Positions 619-10,885 of a DNA stretch of 64,000 nucleotides are shown piece after piece. Source of the DNA: Bacillota bacterium (lineage in GTDB: Bacteria; Bacillota; Sulfobacillia; JAJZYS01; JAJYTV01); assembly GCA_021793645.1 (NCBI GenBank), contig JAJYSJ010000004.1, positions 1 through 64,000 on the forward strand, given 5' to 3'. Numbering within the stretch: the stretch's first letter is position 1; each line of letters opens with the position of its first letter. The translations under genes and the position numbers were made by a program. The notes under the pieces were generated by a model, which saw only the letters and a list, made by a program, of their open reading frames with translations, was not told the DNA's origin and did no database searches.

Positions 619-885
619 TTAGTAGCGACGCGGGCGCTCTTCGCGCGGGCGCGCCTCGTTGACCGTCAACTGGCGGTCCTCCCAGGTCGAACCGTTCAGC
701 GCCTCGATCACGGCCTCAGCCTTGTCCGCTGGGACCTCAACAAACCCGAAGCCGCGTGAACGCCCAGTTTCCCGGTCGGTCGCGATGCGAGCTGTGAGCA
801 CTTCAGCGTACTGTGAGACAGCCTGCTGCAGGTCCTCGTTCGTGACGGACCACGGCAGGTTGCCCACGTAGATGGTCTTCTGCAT
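619..885 (-). CDS. Single-RRM RNA-binding protein
   Basis: This 88-residue protein is one RNA recognition motif. RNP2 is IYVGNL near residue 4 and RNP1 is RGFGFVEV near residue 47, with a short Arg/Glu-rich tail. Such proteins in bacteria bind single-stranded RNA and are often cold- or stress-induced; that role is inferred from the family. The ATG at 885 is chosen because AGGGAG lies 9 bases upstream and the RRM begins at once; a longer upstream frame has no RRM residues. It is monocistronic, with its own promoter (985-1013) and terminator (571-605). The untranslated leader is about 90 nt. Confidence 0.88.
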   Translation of the reverse strand: MQKTIYVGNLPWSVTNEDLQQAVSQYAEVLTARIATDRETGRSRGFGFVEVPADKAEAVIEALNGSTWEDRQLTVNEARPREERPRRY

Positions 886-984
886 TGCTATGCACTCCCT
901 TCGAAACAATGTTCGCCTGGAAGTGCACGGAGGCATCCGCTTTTCAGCCGGTGAATCCATATCAACCCCTAACGCGACGATAGA

Positions 985-1013
985 ACCATACCACATAGTG
1001 GCAACCAGTGCAA
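985..1013 (-). promoter_or_regulatory. Probable sigma-A promoter of the RRM gene
   Basis: On the minus strand TTGCAC is separated by 17 bp from TATGGT. Transcription would start near 978, giving a roughly 90-nt leader before the ATG at 885. Confidence 0.5.
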
Positions 1014-1073
1014 GCGGGAACGTCAGGGGGTTTGATCCGCGGCGTACAAAACGTAAACCGAAGCTTCCAGGCA

Positions 1074-1223
1074 GGCGGATTGGCTTTCGTCCGCCCTCAT
1101 ATGTTTTCCCCGCAGCACGGATCTGAAAGCCCTCAGATCTTCGGTATGGCTGGCGTTCCTTTCCCGCAAAGGTAGAGGAGTTGCGCGACGAGGCGGCGGC
1201 TGTGGCGCCTCATCGCCCGCCGC
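1074..1223 (+). other. Hairpin-rich intergenic segment upstream of the ParM-like gene
   Basis: The 557-bp gap 886-1442 holds no supportable gene. Within it I see stems GGCGGA/TCCGCC (1074-1095), GATCTGA/TCAGATC (1120-1139, perfect 7 bp, 6-nt loop) and GAGGCG/CGCCTC (1190-1211). The last competes with GCGGCGG/CCGCCGC (1193-1223). Mutually exclusive stems are what a switching leader would show, but I could not match it to a known riboswitch class. From 1230 to 1442 the gap becomes less GC-rich and has no clear signal except the ribosome binding site AGGAGG near 1425. Confidence 0.3.
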
Positions 1224-1442
1224 TAGCCTGTTTGGCGAGAGCCCGTTCGGATGGGAGGGCCGTCGGAACTTCCACAAGACCTTGTGTGCGGGTACAGCGT
1301 GCAGCCGTATACAAGTGAACTCCGTCCATGCCGAATGGACAAATTTACGAGAAGATGGATGCGATTAGCAGGTTATTTGACGATTTGGCGAATTTAACTT
1401 GCAGAGGCTTTTAACGAAACGACCAGGAGGTGGCACCTAAGA

Positions 1443-2471
1443 ATGCGGGTGCTGGGAATGGACATCGGCTTCGGCCGATGCAAGGGTGCACTAGACGGCA
1501 GGACTGTGGAGTTCCCGGCCTTTGTATCTGCCCCGTCTGCACTGGACCTGGGTGAGGTCCACATTCGGAACGTACTGACGGACCCGGAAGGTCATGTCTG
1601 GATTTATGGTGAGGACGCCATCCTCGAGGGTGGAGCCCGGATCACTCTCGCACCGGACAAGATGCGCAGCGAGACGGACCGTGCCCGGATGCTCGCTCTA
1701 TTAGGGGAACTGTTCGCCGATTCGCCAATGGGCTACATCGACCGGATCGTGACCGGCCTTCCGGTCGCAGAACTTGGTCCTTTCAAGGACGACGTGGTTG
1801 CCTTGCTCAAAGGACCGCACAAATTCAGCATCGGCAAGCGCAACTACAACATCACGATCGGGGATGTGCGCGTCATTCCGCAGGGAGCGGGCGCCTACTA
1901 CTCTCTGGTCCTGCAGGACGGTAAGGAATCATCGGAGGCGTCATCTTATTCGGGGCGTTGCCTCATCGTTGACGTGGGGTACCGGACGGTGAACCTCGTG
2001 ACATTGGACAACGGGCGGTACGTACCGCATTTGAGCGCCACGCTCCCGAAGGACGGCATCAACAATCTGCATCTAGACCTGCGCCGTCTCATCGCGAGGC
2101 AATTCTCCGGGTATGACGTGGGCATCGCGGAGATCGACAAGGCGTGCCGTACGCGCTCGGTCCTGATCGACGGCGAAGTGACGAGAATCGGTGATCTCGT
2201 CGAAGCGGCCGCACTTTCCCTTGGAGAGCGCGTGGTCGAGCAGATCGAGACCTATTCCGACTCCCGCTCCGTTGCGAAGGTCATCCTGACCGGCGGCGGA
2301 TCCGCGCTGCTGCAGCCGGTCTTCGCGCCGCTGTTCAAGAACCTTGTCGTACCGCCGCAGGCGTCGCTTGCGAACGCGGTTGGCTACCTCGAGTACGGCA
2401 AGTGGATTGCGCGCAGGGAAACGCCGAGCAGCAGCAGCGAGGCGGCAGCTGCCGCAACCAGCGAAGAGTAG
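1443..2471 (+). CDS. ParM/StbA-like actin-family ATPase
   Basis: The 342-residue protein has the actin-fold phosphate-1 loop MDIGFGRCKGA at the N-terminus, a phosphate-2 loop LIVDVGYRTVNLV near residue 175, and the adenosine motif ILTGGGSALL near residue 280. Actin-like ParM proteins polymerise to segregate plasmids, while chromosomal or phage relatives have other filament roles. No ParR-type DNA-binding partner or iteron repeats are visible nearby. A low-complexity Ser/Ala/Glu tail closes the protein. The ATG at 1443 follows AGGAGGTGG by 12 bases. It appears monocistronic, ending before the hairpin at 2526. Confidence 0.8.
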   Translation: MRVLGMDIGFGRCKGALDGRTVEFPAFVSAPSALDLGEVHIRNVLTDPEGHVWIYGEDAILEGGARITLAPDKMRSETDRARMLALLGELFADSPMGYIDRIVTGLPVAELGPFKDDVVALLKGPHKFSIGKRNYNITIGDVRVIPQGAGAYYSLVLQDGKESSEASSYSGRCLIVDVGYRTVNLVTLDNGRYVPHLSATLPKDGINNLHLDLRRLIARQFSGYDVGIAEIDKACRTRSVLIDGEVTRIGDLVEAAALSLGERVVEQIETYSDSRSVAKVILTGGGSALLQPVFAPLFKNLVVPPQASLANAVGYLEYGKWIARRETPSSSSEAAAAATSEE

Positions 2472-2525
2472 GCGTGAGCTTCTTCCCCTTCGCGCCTGAG
2501 ACGACTTAGAAACACCAAACCAGAA

Positions 2526-2561
2526 GAGCGGGGAACCGGGCATTGGCCTGGCTCCCCGCTC
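2526..2561 (+). terminator. Terminator hairpin after the ParM-like gene
   Basis: GAGCGGGGA pairs with TCCCCGCTC across an 18-nt loop, followed by GCATTTGCT. The T-tract is weak, so it may be only partly efficient. From 2562 to 2745 there is no other recognised feature. Confidence 0.6.
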
Positions 2562-2745
2562 GCATTTGCTGGCGTGAGGGACGTAGGAGGCGCTTCGAGC
2601 GGCTTGGGCGCTGGCCACGCATGCACCCTGGCCTCCGACGGAGGCTGGCGCAGGCGTATACTTGAGCCGGGGTTCGCCCTGCACGGCAGGGGTGCCGCCC
2701 AAAGACCGCTGCGTTGTCCAGACGCCGCAGGGAGGACCGTTGCGC

Positions 2746-5568
2746 GTGCCAAGATGGAACTGGCCGATCGTCAGCCTGCTGGTCGCGGCGGGCGTCCTTG
2801 CTGTTCCCGTCAGCGCCGGTTCCGTCGCGTCGGACAACCTTGGGGTGTCCCCGGTGCCGGCTGCCCATCGAACTTCAGCCGCCGCAGCCCCGAGCCTGGC
2901 CCAGACCCCGAAAACCAGCCTGCAAAACAGTTGGCTTGACATTGTCGCGACCAGCCCGGCGCTGCAGCACGCGGCAGTTTCGGCTTATGCGTATGACCTG
3001 ACCACCCATCGGCCGCTGGCGGCGCTTAGCCCTCAGCAGATGCAGATCCCAGCATCCGTCATGAAGATGTTCACGACGGCCGCAGCGCTTGCGGAGCTCG
3101 GGCCAAACTTTTCGTACAAGACAAGAGTGGAGGTGCCGGCATCCGTGGTCGCGGGGCAGCCAGGCCCAATCTACCTCGTGGGCGGGGGCGATCCGTGGCT
3201 GGAAGCCAACGGCTCGCAAGGGCTCGAGCAGCTTGCCGCCGAGGTGGCGAGGCGGATCCCGCAGGCAACGCAGGTGATCGGCGTGAGTTCGCTCTTTACG
3301 CGCCCGGGTGCCGGTCCAGCCTGGTCCGCAAGCGAACTGGAGGATTCCTTCGCCTCTGCCACGTCCGCCCTCGTGGCGGAGCGTTCCGAGGTTGAAGTGG
3401 TCGTCACGGCCGGGTCCATGCCGGGCGCCCCGGTGCGCATCGGTCTTCAGTTCAACAGCAAGCTTGCGGACCCAGGGTACTTCCAGATCCGAGATGAAGC
3501 GACGACAGTAGCAAGCCACGCGCCGGGCGCGACGATCACCAGGCTACTGGGAACGAACACCATCGTCGTACAGGGCAGCATGCTCCCGCATGCCCAAACG
3601 GCGACCACGCTTTCCGTGCATGACCCTGCTCTCTTCGCCGCAGCGCTCTTCCAGGAGGCGCTTTCCCAGCGCGGTGTACAGCTGCAGGCTCCCGCCAGTA
3701 CCGGGAGCCTCCCCCAGGGCATGCAGCAAGTGGCGGTGCTCAGTTCGCACCCTCTGAGCTACCTGCTCCCGCTGCAGAATCGCTTCTCCATCAACTTGAT
3801 GGCCGACAACCTCTACCGCATGCTGGGAGCCGCTCGCAGCGGCGTTGGATCGCCGCAGACAGCGCAGGCGGCGATGGCGGCATTCTCTCAGTCGGCAGGA
3901 TTTGGCGGTGCACCGCCCCAGGCGGATGGCTCCGGCCTCTCGCCGCTCAATGAGCGCAGTGCGACTCAGATCGTCTCTCTACTCACCTACGCCGCGTCCC
4001 AACCTTGGTATCCCGTGTTCGAGCAGTCCATGATGCAGGCGGGCAGCCCGAACCCCAAAGTGTGCGGCGTGATCTGCGGTCACTTCGTCGGCACGCCAGC
4101 CGCGGGAAGGGTCTGGTTGAAGACCGGCAACCTCGAGAACCAGTGGAACTACGCCGGCTACGCAACTGCTGCGAATGGCGACAATATCGCCTTCGCAATC
4201 CTCGTGGAGGGACCGCTTACAAACCAGCTCGACGGGTTCGGGTCGTCCCTCAGTCCGATCGATCAGATGACAGTCGATCTCGCCACCTGGCCGAAAGAAC
4301 CGCCGTCCACCCAGCAGCAGCCCACCCAGCCCCCAGCTGCCCCGCCTGCGGTGGCCGCCATCCTGCACGGTCTGCCCGGAGCAGCCGGTGCGCTCATGGG
4401 CGGAACGGTGATCGACCTGCGGAGCGGGCGGGTCGTCTGGCAACAGAACGGCGCCACGCTCATTCGTGCGGCCTGGGTGCCGCGCATCGCTTTGCTCGAC
4501 GCGGCACTCGGCGGCGGGACGACCGCTTTCAAACCGGTGACGGTGCGCGCTGGCGGGCCGCTCCAGGGCGGAACTGTCGCCGGCCCCATCATCCTGGATG
4601 GCAACAACAATCCGGATCTCTCGAACGGAGACCTTGCGACCCTGGCGCAGGCGGTGCGGACTGCCGGCGTCACCACGATTGCGGGCCCGGTCGAGTATGT
4701 GCAGGGGCCGATTGCAGGGAAGGGCGCACTTCGGTGGCCTTCTGGCGCTGTGTACGAGGCGCTCGGTCAGGCGTATTTGCCGCCAGCCTCCCGCCTAACG
4801 GCAGATGGCGACCAAGTCACGCTGACGATCAGCGCCTCCGCTGCAGGAGCACGCGCGACGACGGCAGTCTCGCCGCAAGATGCGCCGATTTCCGTGATCG
4901 ATCGTGCCATCGGTGCGCCTAGCGGCACGCACGCAGCGCCAGTGGTGGAGTGGCAGCGCGGGACGGATGCCTACATCGTAACGGGGGAGGTCCCGATAGG
5001 GGAACCGGTTGTCGTGCACATCGCGCCCCCGAACCCCGGGCAACTCGCCGCCACCATGTTCCGCGATGCGCTGCGCTCCGCCGGCGTGCACGTGGAGATC
5101 GCCACGGTCAGCGCAGCGGCACCCGATGGGCAGGCAGCGCTCCTTGCCTCGCTGCCTGGGAGCTCTCTCGCGCAGATCTCCCGGACGCTCCTTGCAAGTC
5201 CATCCACCGGCACCGCCACGCAGGTCGACATCCTGCTCGGGAATGGTGCGGTGAAGGCGCTGCAGGCGGTTGCAGGACCAACCGACATCGTCCCCGATCC
5301 GACGGGCACTGCGATGAACGACTACATGACAGCAGAAAGCGTGGCGCAGATGCTCGCGCAGGCCTGGGGCCGGCCGGCGGAGCAGCCGCTCGTCGCCGCA
5401 TTGGGGACACAAGGCCTGTGGCACGCGACCACTCCGGGGACAGAGGCTTTTGTAGGCTACTTCAAGGGCCCTAATGGGACGCCGTACGCAGCGGCGATCC
5501 TGCAGAGCGGACTGCAGGCGGGCGGCTCCTTTGCACCGGTGATCACGCCGCCGTCGACAGCGCCCTAA
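2746..5568 (+). CDS. dacB: PBP4-type D-Ala-D-Ala carboxypeptidase with a second, inactive tandem copy
   Basis: This exported 940-residue protein belongs to peptidase family S13, which trims peptidoglycan stem peptides. After a signal or anchor segment (residues 4-25) the first half carries SVMK (Ser104-Lys107), SIN (Ser348) and KTG (Lys459), the three expected active-site motifs. From about residue 525 a Pro/Gln linker leads to a second S13-like half that repeats landmarks of the first (GPIYLVGGGDPWL against GPIILDGNNNPDL; LKTGN against HATTP) but has lost SxxK, SxN and KTG. Usual DacB is about 480 residues, so this is a doubled protein. GTG 2746 is preferred over TTG 2662 or 2740 because AGGGAGG lies 10 bases upstream. 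It is convergent with the epimerase gene, with 2 bases between them. Confidence 0.85.
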   Translation: MPRWNWPIVSLLVAAGVLAVPVSAGSVASDNLGVSPVPAAHRTSAAAAPSLAQTPKTSLQNSWLDIVATSPALQHAAVSAYAYDLTTHRPLAALSPQQMQIPASVMKMFTTAAALAELGPNFSYKTRVEVPASVVAGQPGPIYLVGGGDPWLEANGSQGLEQLAAEVARRIPQATQVIGVSSLFTRPGAGPAWSASELEDSFASATSALVAERSEVEVVVTAGSMPGAPVRIGLQFNSKLADPGYFQIRDEATTVASHAPGATITRLLGTNTIVVQGSMLPHAQTATTLSVHDPALFAAALFQEALSQRGVQLQAPASTGSLPQGMQQVAVLSSHPLSYLLPLQNRFSINLMADNLYRMLGAARSGVGSPQTAQAAMAAFSQSAGFGGAPPQADGSGLSPLNERSATQIVSLLTYAASQPWYPVFEQSMMQAGSPNPKVCGVICGHFVGTPAAGRVWLKTGNLENQWNYAGYATAANGDNIAFAILVEGPLTNQLDGFGSSLSPIDQMTVDLATWPKEPPSTQQQPTQPPAAPPAVAAILHGLPGAAGALMGGTVIDLRSGRVVWQQNGATLIRAAWVPRIALLDAALGGGTTAFKPVTVRAGGPLQGGTVAGPIILDGNNNPDLSNGDLATLAQAVRTAGVTTIAGPVEYVQGPIAGKGALRWPSGAVYEALGQAYLPPASRLTADGDQVTLTISASAAGARATTAVSPQDAPISVIDRAIGAPSGTHAAPVVEWQRGTDAYIVTGEVPIGEPVVVHIAPPNPGQLAATMFRDALRSAGVHVEIATVSAAAPDGQAALLASLPGSSLAQISRTLLASPSTGTATQVDILLGNGAVKALQAVAGPTDIVPDPTGTAMNDYMTAESVAQMLAQAWGRPAEQPLVAALGTQGLWHATTPGTEAFVGYFKGPNGTPYAAAILQSGLQAGGSFAPVITPPSTAP

Positions 5569-5570
5569 CC

Positions 5571-6590
5571 CTACTGGGGCGCTGGGACTGCTTCTTCGAA
5601 GATCCGGCTGACTGCCGACCAGCGCTCGCCGGGCGCAAGTGCCCGCATGCCGGTTTCCTGCGGCGGCAGCGCGATGTTCGGGGCGTTCACAAGGCATGTC
5701 ATCGGCTCGGGGCAGAAAAAGCCGCTCTTCGCATCGCTGTTCCAGAGCATCCAGGCGCGGTACTCCCGGCCTGTCTGGTAGACGAGGCGCACCCCCAGCT
5801 TGTGGTCTGTGACGCTGCACTCGTTCGGTCCATCTCCCGGTGCCGCACTGAAGAGCGCGTCGATCGGGTGGACGTACGGGTCGCCTGTGCCGTGCGCGAT
5901 GGCCTCTGCCATGCTGTCGCGACGGATGATTCGGCCGGTCGGGACCTTGCGGTCGGAAAGCTCCCACTGCTGCCCGATGTTCACGGAAACCGTACAGTCC
6001 TCAGCAGTGCTCTCCGGCGCAAACGGTACGAGCAGGGCTGTGTGGAAACCGAGCAGGAACGGCATCGGCCGGTCCCCGTCGTTTTGCACGCTGACCTCCT
6101 GGCGTAGGCCATCCGCACTGAGCGTGTAGTCGAGTTCGAGCGTCAGGCGGTGCGGGAAGATTCGGAAGACGTCGTCGCCCTCGCGCAGCAGGTGACGCAG
6201 CACAAGGCGAGCGGAGCCCTCCGTTGCGCTGCGCGCGACGATTTCCCAGGCGGCCTTCGCGAAGAAGCCGTGCAGGTGGTTGTGCAGGGTGGGCTCGTTG
6301 ATCGGAAAGCGGTAGGTTTCGCCGTTGAACGTGAAGGTTCCATCGGAGATGCGGTTTGGTGGAAAGAGCAGGGGCAGCCCGTAGGGAACAGGGTGCTGAA
6401 GGTACTGAGAGAGGTCTTGGCTGCCTGGCGAGAGGGGCTCTCGCAAAAAGCGCAGACCCATCTTCACGTCGCGGAGCGAGACGAGATGGGCGCCAACGGA
6501 TGGCAGTACGACGGCTTCATAGCGCTCGGCTTGCAAAACGACCGAAGGAGCCGCCCCATAGGTACCTGCGCTGATCGATGCTTCCTTCAC
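5571..6590 (-). CDS. Aldose 1-epimerase (galactose mutarotase) family protein
   Basis: The 339-residue protein has the GalM-type beta-sandwich signature: HNHLHGFF near residue 120, GFHTALLVPF near residue 190 and PEPMTCLVNAPN near residue 295. These supply the two histidines and the glutamate expected for anomer interconversion of aldoses. The substrate cannot be told from sequence. GTG 6590 follows GGGGTGAG at good spacing, while the alternative start at 6623 lacks one. The aquaporin gene lies 37 bp upstream on the same strand, so the two are probably co-transcribed; a sugar or polyol link is possible. Confidence 0.8.
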   Translation of the reverse strand: MKEASISAGTYGAAPSVVLQAERYEAVVLPSVGAHLVSLRDVKMGLRFLREPLSPGSQDLSQYLQHPVPYGLPLLFPPNRISDGTFTFNGETYRFPINEPTLHNHLHGFFAKAAWEIVARSATEGSARLVLRHLLREGDDVFRIFPHRLTLELDYTLSADGLRQEVSVQNDGDRPMPFLLGFHTALLVPFAPESTAEDCTVSVNIGQQWELSDRKVPTGRIIRRDSMAEAIAHGTGDPYVHPIDALFSAAPGDGPNECSVTDHKLGVRLVYQTGREYRAWMLWNSDAKSGFFCPEPMTCLVNAPNIALPPQETGMRALAPGERWSAVSRIFEEAVPAPQ

Positions 6591-6627
6591 ATGGCTCACC
6601 CCTTTTCTGGTCTCAAGGCGCATCGAC

Positions 6628-7473
6628 CTACTGTGGTCGAGCGGTGGAACCTCTGCGCAGCAGTGCCCGTACGAAGCGGCGGAATTTCGCCGCGATGCTC
6701 ACGGCGGCCGCTCCGTGGAACCGGCCGAAGGGGTCGTGGGCGTGGTGCGCGACTTTGGCGACGTGCACCCTGTCGGAGCGCGCCACCGCGATCGCGGCGA
6801 TCAATGCGCCGAGCGCCGGGCCGAGCAGGTAAATCCAGAGGACGCCGATGGTGTGCGACGCAATGGCCGGTCCTAGCGTACGCGCCGGATTCATCGAGGT
6901 CCCGCTGTAGGGTGCTTCGAGGGCCACGAGTACAGCGACAAGCGGAGGGATGAGCGCGGGGGTGAAGGCGCGCAGCCGGGGGTGGCCGACGAACCAGAGG
7001 ATCCCGCCGACCAGCGCGAAGGTGGCGATGACCTCGCCGAGGACCGCCGCCCAGGGACCAGCCAGGGTGGATGGAACTGTGGCGCCGAAGAGCACGGCGT
7101 GGCCGAACGCCCCCCATACGGGGGGGAGCGAGAGCGCCGCGGCGATGGCGCCTGCGCACTGCGCCGCCGTATAGAGCAAGGCGTCCTTGATGCCCAAACT
7201 GCCGACAAGCCAGAAGGCCCAGGAGAGCACGGGGTCGAGATGGGCCCCCGAGATGCGCCCCGCAGGACTGAGGGCCACGAGCGCCCCGACGCTGCCGAAC
7301 AGGAATCCTGTCAGCAGCCTGCGCAGAAAGGGGTCAGGCAGCCAGGTTGCCATGGGCGACCCGGGGCCGAAATCGAAGATCACGACGCTGAGTCCGAGGA
7401 AGATAAGCAGGAACGTGCCTAGGAATTCGGCGGCATATGCCTGCCAATGCCAGAGAGGACGGGTGTTCGGCAA
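6628..7473 (-). CDS. MIP-family channel (aquaporin or glycerol facilitator) with atypical first NPA box
   Basis: The 281-residue membrane protein has six hydrophobic segments and the two half-helix loops of major intrinsic proteins. The second box is canonical (GTSMNPART, Asn195-Arg198). The first, normally SGxHxNPA, reads SGAHLDPV (Asp80-Val82). Both Asn and Ala are replaced, so pore selectivity may differ from ordinary water or glycerol channels. The C-terminal tail is Arg/His-rich and cytosolic. It is probably the first gene of a two-gene unit with the epimerase. Confidence 0.82.
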   Translation of the reverse strand: MPNTRPLWHWQAYAAEFLGTFLLIFLGLSVVIFDFGPGSPMATWLPDPFLRRLLTGFLFGSVGALVALSPAGRISGAHLDPVLSWAFWLVGSLGIKDALLYTAAQCAGAIAAALSLPPVWGAFGHAVLFGATVPSTLAGPWAAVLGEVIATFALVGGILWFVGHPRLRAFTPALIPPLVAVLVALEAPYSGTSMNPARTLGPAIASHTIGVLWIYLLGPALGALIAAIAVARSDRVHVAKVAHHAHDPFGRFHGAAAVSIAAKFRRFVRALLRRGSTARPQ

Positions 7474-8005
7474 GCTGTCGCCTCCATCGCATGCAAAAGA
7501 TCAGAGGGGAGTCTCTCGCGTGTTCAGCATATGGGCCTGCACATGCCGCCACAAGAGCGGCCCCAGTTTGCGGCGTCCGCTCCCCACCGCACGCCCGGAC
7601 GATGCCGCAGACAGCACACACGAAAGGCGGGTCGCGAGCACGCTCGTGCGGGCATGCTTGCCGCAAACTCGTCAGGTCAGCGGTAACACGTGAAGGGTGA
7701 TCCACTAAGCGGACTTCGCGCGCGTCAGCATTTTACTGAATGCACAACATTGGTGAAGGACTCAATGTGCGCAGTTACATTGTAGACGTATAAGCCTATC
7801 ATATTCCATAGCATAAGCGTTACCTTCATAAATGAGAAAATCGCACCGTTGTGACGCATGACCTTTTTCCGAGAAGGATAACGACTAAAATTCGAGTGGA
7901 CAACGGATTACACCTGCCGCGGACACCTGTGGAACATCCGCAACACTGTATACTGCTGAACCTATGTTGCCAGCTTTGCGAAGCTCGTCACAAGGAGGGG
8001 TCTTT
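7474..8005 (+). promoter_or_regulatory. Intergenic region with candidate qox promoter
   Basis: No gene is supportable in this 532-bp gap between the divergent aquaporin gene and qoxA. The part 7730-7860 is clearly AT-richer than its surroundings and contains TTACAT (7775-7780), 16 bp, then TATCAT (7797-7802), a plausible sigma-A promoter reading towards qoxA. TATACT near 7949 is a second possible -10 without a good -35. The qoxA ribosome binding site AAGGAGG is at 7992-7998. Confidence 0.35.
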
Positions 8006-8881
8006 GTGGCTTACCATCGATATCGGTGGTCTCGTCTCCTATTGCCGTTGACGGTCGTCACAACTGGCCTACTCGCTTCGGGATGCGGCAAGCAGTTTGT
8101 CGTCCTCGACCCGCAGGGTCCTGTCGCCCGCAGCGAACTTCATCTCATCGAGACCACCGCCATGGCCATGGGCGTGGTCGTCTTGTTCGTACTCGTACTC
8201 TTCGCAGTCACGGTGCTCAAGTTTCGCGACAGGCCAGGCAACCGGGCACCGTACATCCCGAACTGGAGCGGCAGCCGCCGGCTGGAGTTCGTTCTGTTCG
8301 CCATCCCGGTACTGATTGTCGTGTACATCGCCGTACCGACCGTCCAGCAGACGTATGCCTTGGACCGTCTGCCGCCAACGAAGCATCCGTTGATCATCGA
8401 CGTCACGTCATTGGACTACAAATGGCTTTTCCAATACCCGAAGCAGGGAGTCGCGACCGTCAACTACATCGATGTGCCGGTCGGAGTCCCAGTCCTCTTC
8501 GAACTCACCGCGAATTCGCCGATGAACACCTTCTGGATTCCGCAGCTGGGCGGAATGGAGTACTCCATGCCGGGCCGTGTGCTGCCCCTCTACCTGCAGG
8601 CAGACAAGGCAGGCGTCTACTGGGGACGTAGCGCCAACTTCTCGGGACGCGGCTTCGTCCACATGGTCTTCCATGTAAAGGCGATGCCTCCGGCAGAGTT
8701 CAGCCGCTGGGCGCAGGGCCTGCGCACCACAGCGCCCCACATGTCCATGCAGGACTATCGCCAGCTCCTTGCCGTCGGCACGGCCAGGGAGGAGAGCTTC
8801 TCCGCGTATCCCGCAGGCACGTTCCCCACCGCGACGCATGGCTTCACGCTGAAGGGCGGCATGTACCTCGAGCCCAACTAA
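8006..8881 (+). CDS. qoxA: Quinol oxidase subunit II (lipoprotein)
   Basis: The 291-residue protein starts with a lipoprotein signal ending LLASGC (Cys27). Two transmembrane helices follow (about residues 50-75 and 95-115), then a periplasm-side cupredoxin domain. The region where cytochrome c oxidases have the Cys/Cys/His/Met CuA site reads NFSGRGFVHMVF, with no cysteines, so this is a quinol- rather than cytochrome c-oxidising enzyme. GTG 8006 follows AAGGAGG by 7 bases. It is the first gene of qoxABCD, which moves electrons from menaquinol to oxygen in the membrane. Confidence 0.9.
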   Translation: MAYHRYRWSRLLLPLTVVTTGLLASGCGKQFVVLDPQGPVARSELHLIETTAMAMGVVVLFVLVLFAVTVLKFRDRPGNRAPYIPNWSGSRRLEFVLFAIPVLIVVYIAVPTVQQTYALDRLPPTKHPLIIDVTSLDYKWLFQYPKQGVATVNYIDVPVGVPVLFELTANSPMNTFWIPQLGGMEYSMPGRVLPLYLQADKAGVYWGRSANFSGRGFVHMVFHVKAMPPAEFSRWAQGLRTTAPHMSMQDYRQLLAVGTAREESFSAYPAGTFPTATHGFTLKGGMYLEPN

Positions 8882-8923
8882 GCCTAGGAGCCCTCGAGAC
8901 TGGACCCAAAAGGCGGGTATGTC

Positions 8924-10885
8924 ATGGCACAGCTGATTGCGAAACTCTTTCCCTCCACTGTCCTGCGGCCGATGGAGATCGGCGCCGACGCGTCCATCCT
9001 GCTTGCGGTCTTGGCAGTCGTCTACATCCTGACGCGGTACAGGAAGTGGGGGTGGCTCTGGCGCGAGTGGATCACCACCGTCGACCACAAGAAGATCGGG
9101 ATCATGTATCTGATCGCGGCGATTGTGATGCTCTTCCGCGGGGGCGTCGACGCCCTGATGCTCCGCACCCAGCTGGCACTGCCGAACGGCCACTTCCTCG
9201 GTCCGGAGCACTATAACGAGATCTTTACGACGCACGGCACGATCATGGTCTTCTTCATGGCGATGCCGTTCATCTTCGCTCTGTTCAACATCGCGATTCC
9301 GCTCATGATCGGTGCGCGGGACGTGGCGTTCCCGAAGCTGAACGCCATCAGCTTCTGGCTATTTGCCTTCGCCGCACTGCTCTTCAACATGTCGTTCGTG
9401 GTCGGCGGATCTCCCAACGCAGGCTGGACCGCGTACCCGCCTCTGACGGAGCTCCACTTCAATCCGGGCGTCGGCGAGAACTACTACCTGATCGCCTTGC
9501 AGATTACCGGCATCGGATCGATCGCGACGGGGATCAACTTCCTTGTGACGATTCTGCGCATGCGCGCCAAGGGCATGTCCTTGATGAAGATGCCGCTCTT
9601 CGCCTGGTCTGCGCTTGTCACCTCGTCGCTCGTCATCTTCGCCTTCCCTGCCCTGACGATCGCGCTTGCGCTGACCATGCTTGACCGGCTGTTCGGGTCG
9701 ACGTTCTTCACGATCGCGCATGGCGGCATGCCGATGATGTACGTGAATCTCTTCTGGATCTGGGGGCATCCCGAAGTCTACATCCTAGCACTGCCGGCCT
9801 TCGGCATCTTCTCCGAGGTGGTTGCCACCTTCTCGCGCAAGCGGCTGTTCGGTTATGCCGCGATGGTCGGATCGCTGGTCGCAATCACCTTGCTGAGCTA
9901 CGGCGTCTGGGTCCACCACTTTTTCACGATGGGCGCGGGCGCCGCGGTCAACGCGTTCTTCGGCATCTCCACGATGCTGATCGCTATCCCGACCGGCGTG
10001 AAGATCTTCAACTGGATCTTCACGATGTGGGGCGGCCGCATCAAGACAACGGTCGCGATGCTCTGGCAGCTTGCCTTCATCCCGACCTTCGTGGTCGGCG
10101 GCGCGACCGGTGTCATGCTGGCAGTGGTGCCGGGGGACTACCAGTTCCACAACAGCTACTTCCTGATCGCGCACTTCCACAACGTCCTGATCGGGGGCGT
10201 GGTCTTCGGCCTCTTCTCAGGGCTGTACTACTGGTGGCCGAAGATGTTCGGGTACATGCTGAACGAGCGCCAGGGCAAGTGGGCGTTTTGGTTCTTCGTG
10301 ATCGGCTTCTGGGTGACGTTCTTCCCCCAGTACCTCTTGGGCCTCAAGGGGATGACGCGCCGCATCTACACCTACCCGCACGGTATGGGCTGGACCCTTC
10401 TGAACCTCATCTCCACCGTGGGTGCCTACGCCATGGGCATCGGGTTCATCATCCTCGTCTACAGCGTCGTGTACAGCTGGCGTCACCAGGAGCGCGACCT
10501 GACGGGAGACCCCTGGGACGGAAGAACGCTGGAGTGGTCGCTGCCCTCACCGGCGCCGGAGTACAACTTCGCGGTGCTCCCAGAGGTGACTGAACGCGAC
10601 GCCTGGTGGGAGATGAAGCAGGCAGGCAAAACCGGCAGGATACCCGCCAAGGACGTTCACTCGATCCACATGCCGAGGAACACGCCGATGCCGTTCCTGC
10701 TCGGGCTGAGCTTCTTCGTGGCCGGCCTTGGGGCCGTGTTCTCCTGGTGGTACGTCGCCGTAGCTGGCATGATGGGGGTCTTCATTATCCTGGTGTCGGG
10801 CTGGTTCGACTACCACGACCACCATGAGATCCCCGCTGAAGAGATCCGCCGCAATGAAGCGGCGCTCGGGAGGCTTGAGGGATGA
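8924..10885 (+). CDS. qoxB: Quinol oxidase subunit I (haem-copper)
   Basis: This 653-residue polytopic protein has about 15 helices. It begins its core with VDHKKIGIMY and carries WGHPEVYIL (CuB histidine and cross-linked tyrosine), the VHH pair in GVWVHHFF, and HFHNVLIGG (haem-ligand region). These are the haem-copper oxidase signatures, and the length fits Bacillus QoxB. The start ATG 8924 has only a weak ribosome binding site (AAAAGGCGG). The gene ends in an ATGA overlap with qoxC. Confidence 0.93.
   Translation: MAQLIAKLFPSTVLRPMEIGADASILLAVLAVVYILTRYRKWGWLWREWITTVDHKKIGIMYLIAAIVMLFRGGVDALMLRTQLALPNGHFLGPEHYNEIFTTHGTIMVFFMAMPFIFALFNIAIPLMIGARDVAFPKLNAISFWLFAFAALLFNMSFVVGGSPNAGWTAYPPLTELHFNPGVGENYYLIALQITGIGSIATGINFLVTILRMRAKGMSLMKMPLFAWSALVTSSLVIFAFPALTIALALTMLDRLFGSTFFTIAHGGMPMMYVNLFWIWGHPEVYILALPAFGIFSEVVATFSRKRLFGYAAMVGSLVAITLLSYGVWVHHFFTMGAGAAVNAFFGISTMLIAIPTGVKIFNWIFTMWGGRIKTTVAMLWQLAFIPTFVVGGATGVMLAVVPGDYQFHNSYFLIAHFHNVLIGGVVFGLFSGLYYWWPKMFGYMLNERQGKWAFWFFVIGFWVTFFPQYLLGLKGMTRRIYTYPHGMGWTLLNLISTVGAYAMGIGFIILVYSVVYSWRHQERDLTGDPWDGRTLEWSLPSPAPEYNFAVLPEVTERDAWWEMKQAGKTGRIPAKDVHSIHMPRNTPMPFLLGLSFFVAGLGAVFSWWYVAVAGMMGVFIILVSGWFDYHDHHEIPAEEIRRNEAALGRLEG

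Follow-up and report, generated by a model that had tools for sequence, protein, structure and literature searches.

In the window, by which we mean the whole stretch of 64,000 nucleotides that was analysed, an S13 peptidase gene has been duplicated within one reading frame, the catalytic motifs of the rear copy have died, and that copy has been retained under purifying selection. Judged from its sequence, the 940-residue product is a probably secreted S13 DD-peptidase of the PBP4/DacC type, followed by a Pro/Gln linker and an S13-derived second half. We assign a probability of roughly 55% to the reading that the dead C-terminal half (C half) of this head-to-tail duplicated protein was kept as a tethered pseudo-dimer partner of the N-terminal half (N half), for packing, peptidoglycan binding or placement.

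Two S13-derived halves in one reading frame

The forward-strand frame at 2746–5568 starts at a GTG (2746), with GGGAGG upstream at 2730–2735 and an in-frame TTG at 2740 as an alternative start. Re-reading the frame left the coordinates, the frame and the 940-residue length given by an earlier sequence-only reading unchanged. A frameshift or assembly artefact is ruled out, because 26 genomes have this frame open. Neither the window genome nor any of six relatives checked has an S13 gene besides the doubled one; the other matches to the S13 search in these genomes are short cross-matches of the S11/beta-lactamase type. From 619 to 10885, the window holds genes for an RNA-binding protein, a ParM-like protein, the doubled S13, an aldose-epimerase-like protein, an aquaporin and cytochrome oxidase. 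This order is conserved within the genus (G001, partly G003) and not beyond; an operon with a fixed partner gene is therefore ruled out, since the ParM-like, aldose-epimerase-like, aquaporin and cytochrome oxidase neighbours are kept within the genus only.

Table 1. Features of the doubled S13 gene, with positions in the window.
Feature	Position	Strand	Basis
Signal-peptide-like N-terminal segment RWNWPIVSLLVAAGVLAVPVSAGS	2746..2820	+	Read from sequence; secretion predicted
First half, S13 DD-peptidase, catalytic motifs intact	2923..4284	+	Pfam PF02113; DacC 1w5d, 1.6e-39
SVMK (SxxK; nucleophile Ser104, Lys107; residues 104–107)	3055..3066	+	Motif alignment
SIN (SxN; residues 348–350)	3787..3795	+	Motif alignment
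DGSG motif of S13 enzymes (residue 394)	3925..3936	+	Motif alignment
KTG (residue 459)	4120..4128	+	Motif alignment
Pro/Gln-rich linker between the halves	4285..4344	+	Sequence; least confident stretch of the model
Second half, S13-derived pseudoenzyme	4345..5565	+	Pfam, 3.7e-23; hhalign, 99.5% against first half; AlphaFold2; at least 26 genomes
SxxK relic, W-V-P-R	4474..4485	+	Arg at the catalytic Lys position invariant in 23 aligned C halves
DGSG relic, D-P-T-G	5296..5307	+	(D/E)-x-(T/E)-G kept in most of the clade
KTG position, now W-H-A	5419..5427	+	Trp invariant in 23 aligned C halves

On the whole protein, PF02113 scored 293.7 bits (2.9e-87; cut-off 22.8), with its best stretch at residues 64–493, and TIGR00666 scored 252.9 bits (cut-off 107.8), with its best stretch also in the first half. 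The SVMK, SIN and KTG motifs that the sequence-only reading had placed there are present and in order, and the roughly 240 residues between SxxK and SxN align to the DacC insert that comprises domains II and III. The N half is predicted to be catalytically active. The column of the Asp that likely contacts diaminopimelate (this column and that of its partner Arg are presumed to correspond to E. coli D155 and R361) holds V, I or Y in 23 of the 23 clade N halves examined; the same Asp is kept in 24 of 27 single S13 proteins and in all Brevibacillus halves. Directly after DGSGLS, most N halves of the clade have Pro in place of Arg, although this Arg does not define the family, since several single S13 proteins also lack it. 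The putatively active N halves of this clade may be specific for another stem peptide. In five first halves of the Sulfobacillaceae (f10; L035, L037, L040, L041 and L042), KTG is replaced by KPG, an uncommon variant of the motif that could affect catalysis or the binding of beta-lactams; in one further f10 first half (L039), KSG stands in its place.

On the C half alone, PF02113 scored 82.4 bits (3.7e-23, residues 18–298 of that half) and TIGR00666 scored 71 bits (7.4e-20), which is below the curated PBP4 equivalog cut-off of 107.8. Comparison of the N-half and C-half alignments by hhalign gave 99.5% probability over 380 columns, and a search of the C-half profile against solved structures matched DacC (1w5d, 1.1e-37), R39 (2e-27) and E. 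coli PBP4 (1e-24). BLASTP of half against half was not significant (E 0.086), but chance likeness is ruled out by the Pfam and hhalign profiles. The same order of segments claimed earlier for the second half is therefore seen at the profile level, and the self-alignment proposed as a check succeeds with profiles and fails with plain BLASTP. The Pfam match ends at about position 282 of the 444-position profile; preservation of the C half is therefore best in domains II/III and at the front of the penicillin-binding domain.

At the aligned positions, the C half has no SxxK, no SxN and no KTG, in agreement with the sequence-only reading, and both likely diaminopimelate-contact residues (Asp and Arg) are lost from C halves of the window clade. 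No intact motif was seen in the C halves of 26 relatives; the KTG string that occurs early in the C half of some of them (DLKTGR) is a chance occurrence off the motif position. AlphaFold2 modelled the C half alone with a pLDDT of 92.5 and a pTM of 0.90 (alignment of 41 sequences), and the double minus its signal peptide (881 residues; alignment of 26 sequences) with a pLDDT of 87.6 and a pTM of 0.85. In the latter model, pLDDT falls below 50 at model residues 463–469, and the linker is the weakest stretch besides the extreme C terminus. The C-half strands and helices follow the N-half order, so that the structure prediction suggested earlier returned a confident S13-like arrangement and not an unrelated fold; of the N-half helices, those that follow the SxN position and the C-terminal one are either lost or merged in the C half, and both the models and hhalign show the rear of the penicillin-binding domain to be shortened in the window clade. 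A pTM of 0.85 for the double would be hard to reach without a preferred relative placement of the halves. Together, Pfam, AlphaFold2 and hhalign support a fused active/pseudoenzyme S13 pair that arose by intragenic duplication, as had been proposed, with activity of the N half predicted.

Distribution, origin and selection

A search with the C half found relatives in 25 of 154 genomes of the class (the window family f1, family f10, and G011 of another family in the order). Complete doubles were read in at least 26 genomes (8 from f1, 14 from f10, 3 from Alicyclobacillaceae, and L060), and all 26 carry SxxK and SxN in the N half and lack every motif in the C half. Named loci were taken from a contig profile scan with the N-half alignment, and among the best 80 of its 467 matches are Sulfobacillus harzensis and S. 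acidophilus AMDSBA3, both within f10, as well as Alicyclobacillus acidiphilus and A. mengziensis, which have the same doubled protein. The third Alicyclobacillaceae double is in G233, and S13 is missing from 38 further genomes of the family. The N halves of the Alicyclobacillaceae doubles (L052, L054 and L144; 3 of 41 genomes) lie beside those of Sulfobacillaceae in the tree, and horizontal transfer of the doubled gene between acidophiles is possible. No shortened version of the double was found except at contig ends.

In Brevibacillaceae, 37 of 39 genomes have S13, and in 36 of these 37 a single frame of about 970 residues holds both copies. The remaining genome (G162, L135) has its two halves in separate frames with an overlap in the linker, through a frameshift, an assembly error or a split gene. 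The search for homologues with the doubled architecture, suggested by the sequence-only reading, was thus productive, and its description of the fusion as unusual stands in part: doubling is the rule in the window clade (26 genomes) and in Brevibacillaceae, and it was not seen in a sample of about 100 S13-bearing Actinomycetota and Pseudomonadota genomes. Specifically, no doubled S13 was found among 62 S13-bearing of 149 Actinomycetota genomes, 39 S13-bearing of 150 Pseudomonadota genomes, or 348 + 398 Bacillota genomes outside the named lineages, all scored by Pfam, which may miss strongly decayed second halves.

The Brevibacillaceae N half carries SxxK, SDN and KTG in 36 of 36 doubles, with no N-half death among them. 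The C half is intact in 27 of 36 and has lost its nucleophile in the other nine, which read PANNLQ in B. fulvus (L080), PGTxxK in G186, G188, G189 and G190, PAANVK with VTG in G174, G175 and G176, and PAANSQ in G195. Mapped on the Brevibacillaceae N-half tree, these deaths require four changes (bootstrap range 3–4). Redundancy as the cause of C-half death was rejected: an extra single S13 is present in G174, G175, G176 and G186, and absent in B. fulvus, G188–190 and G195. Extra single S13 genes occur in five Brevibacillaceae genomes (L140–L143, L170), and the four that were placed in the tree cluster with C halves of doubled genes.

In a tree of 100 halves and single S13 proteins, the Sulfobacillus-like N halves cluster together, as do the C halves in a group of their own, with matching subgroups in the two (f1, f10 and Alicyclobacillaceae), and the Brevibacillus halves lie elsewhere, with each other. 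A single shared doubling was rejected by AU tests that constrained all C halves together (p 0.014) or all N halves together (p 0.00065), with long branches as a caveat. The separate position of the Brevibacillus halves and the rejected constraints thus indicate two separate doublings, subject to the same caveat. Within the Sulfobacillus-like clade, N-half and C-half distance matrices correlate with r 0.84, a value reached in 0 of 2000 permutations. C halves of this clade evolve 1.75–2 times as fast as N halves, which points to weaker constraint. Pairwise dN/dS over eight pairs (Nei-Gojobori; dS was saturated in some pairs) was 0.07–0.35 for C halves and 0.09–0.28 for N halves, both well below 1. 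The dead half is therefore under purifying selection, which supports the non-catalytic second half that had been proposed.

Loss of catalytic residues on the C side alone has happened independently about five times (four times in Brevibacillaceae and once in the window clade), for which the chance at equal odds is about 1 in 32. Because the losses are confined to the C half, they suggest that the N and C positions are not equivalent; the repeated loss in the rear half alone further suggests a non-catalytic job for the dead copy. The sole exception is G011, of the window's order, in which neither half of the doubled S13 (L027:6536-9409) has the motifs; another contig of that genome (L028:3218-5122) bears a single S13 with STLK/SIN/KTG, predicted to be of the active type.

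Candidate roles of the dead half

E. coli PBP4 is mainly a dimer in solution and binds peptidoglycan; without domain 3 it is inactive, and still dimerises and binds the sacculus; and its catalytic-site mutants still reach midcell, localisation being independent of activity (PMC9166362). For the doubled protein, we propose the following course. An S13 gene of the PBP4/DacC type was doubled head to tail in an ancestor of the clade. The N half kept the serine machinery and would cut D-Ala cross-links or termini of peptidoglycan outside the membrane, and the C half lost its catalytic residues, the nucleophile among them, while keeping its fold. An intramolecular pseudo-dimer would then replace the PBP4 homodimer, with the C half lending domains II/III and its relic cleft so as to pack against the active half, place it, or bind peptidoglycan. 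Once the halves were tethered, one active site may suffice, leaving the second body free for packing, wall binding or placement. The doubling, the motif loss, the joint inheritance of the two halves and the purifying selection are seen in the data, and the fold is kept in the model; activity of the N half, the pseudo-dimer packing and the role of the C half are what we infer. Speaking for the tethered partner are the S13 homology of the C half, the confident models, the matching N-half and C-half histories, the low dN/dS, the lack of any other S13 in the genomes checked, the independent doubling in Brevibacillaceae with its C-half deaths, and the dimer of E. coli PBP4. Counting against it are the loss of the likely diaminopimelate Asp from all 23 N halves of the clade examined, the faster evolution of the C half, and the source of the dimer evidence, which comes from E. 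coli; the paper on B. subtilis PBP4a makes no mention of a dimer. Tentatively, and at somewhat less than even odds, we extend the proposal to an obligate active/pseudo-PBP4 pair that arose at least twice, in which it would always be the C half that may die because the C position alone would serve as scaffold or allosteric partner.

The sequence-only reading had offered a substrate-binding or regulatory module. As we frame this main rival, the relic cleft would still bind a peptidoglycan stem peptide or another wall ligand and so target or gate the N half, with no mimicry of a dimer. Such a module is consistent with the conserved relic site of the clade (an invariant Arg at the Lys position, D-x-T-G, and an invariant Trp at KTG), with the dead Brevibacillus C halves, which keep the Asp position of the probable diaminopimelate contact and (B. 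fulvus excepted) the Arg that follows DGSG, and with the active-site mutants of E. coli PBP4, which potentially still interact with substrate (PMC9166362). Counting against it are the loss of both contact residues from the window-clade C half and the shortened rear of its penicillin-binding domain; this role is rather unlikely, and the evidence is matched no less well by a structural pseudo-dimer partner. The faster evolution of the C half and the repeated loss of catalysis after doubling could instead mark a functionless, decaying relic that is carried by its fusion to a useful enzyme, but this reading, already disfavoured, is improbable given the low dN/dS of the C half, its confident fold in the AlphaFold2 model, and its full length in 26 genomes from two families and Alicyclobacillaceae. 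Most doubtful is a new enzymatic activity built from the C half's own conserved residues: 16 columns are invariant across 23 C halves (including R47, R130, P132, G321, W359 and Y372), but Gly, Pro, Arg, Leu and aromatic residues make up most of them, and the alignment has no apparent new nucleophile or metal-binding set.

Relation to known S13 enzymes

S13 enzymes are known, and both halves are S13 by descent. What appears to be new is the fusion of an active-type half with a dead one, together with its two origins and one-sided losses; a literature search of limited coverage, by literal term matching, found no paper describing an S13 that is doubled or carries a pseudo-half. The case bears on why PBP4-type enzymes dimerise and on what their non-catalytic domains do, because here two copies have been fused naturally and the rear one switched off several times. 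In Brevibacillus, close relatives with an intact or a dead rear half make the worth of a second active site, or of a second body, directly testable, and doubled proteins are available in the named strains Sulfobacillus harzensis, Alicyclobacillus acidiphilus, A. mengziensis and Brevibacillus fulvus. If an obligate pair did arise with the C position as scaffold or allosteric partner, catalysis and the dimer or placement function would be split between the halves and separable for study.

Among characterised enzymes, B. subtilis PBP4a/DacC (1w5d; a class C1 PBP, MEROPS S13) shares SxxK, SxN and KTG with the window's first half, which aligns over residues 65–497, and its residues 12–314 are matched by the C half; DacC is a single S13 unit without a second half, and the window N half, unlike DacC, is without the Asp conserved in the GDD(T/S) segment. 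The Actinomadura R39 DD-peptidase (1w79, 2wke) has the domain arrangement and motifs of the window N half and is likewise a single unit without a pseudo-half. E. coli PBP4/DacB (2ex2), an S13 DD-endopeptidase/carboxypeptidase of lower similarity to the window protein, forms a solution dimer (PMC9166362) that the doubled protein perhaps imitates; it pairs two identical active chains, whereas the window protein joins a predicted active half and a dead half in one chain. Also comparable are the tandem S13 proteins of Brevibacillaceae (B. fulvus and 35 others), in which C-half catalysis has been lost in about four subclades, as in the window; they differ in their separate duplication (by tree and AU tests), in having mostly two intact halves, and in keeping the residues that likely contact diaminopimelate.
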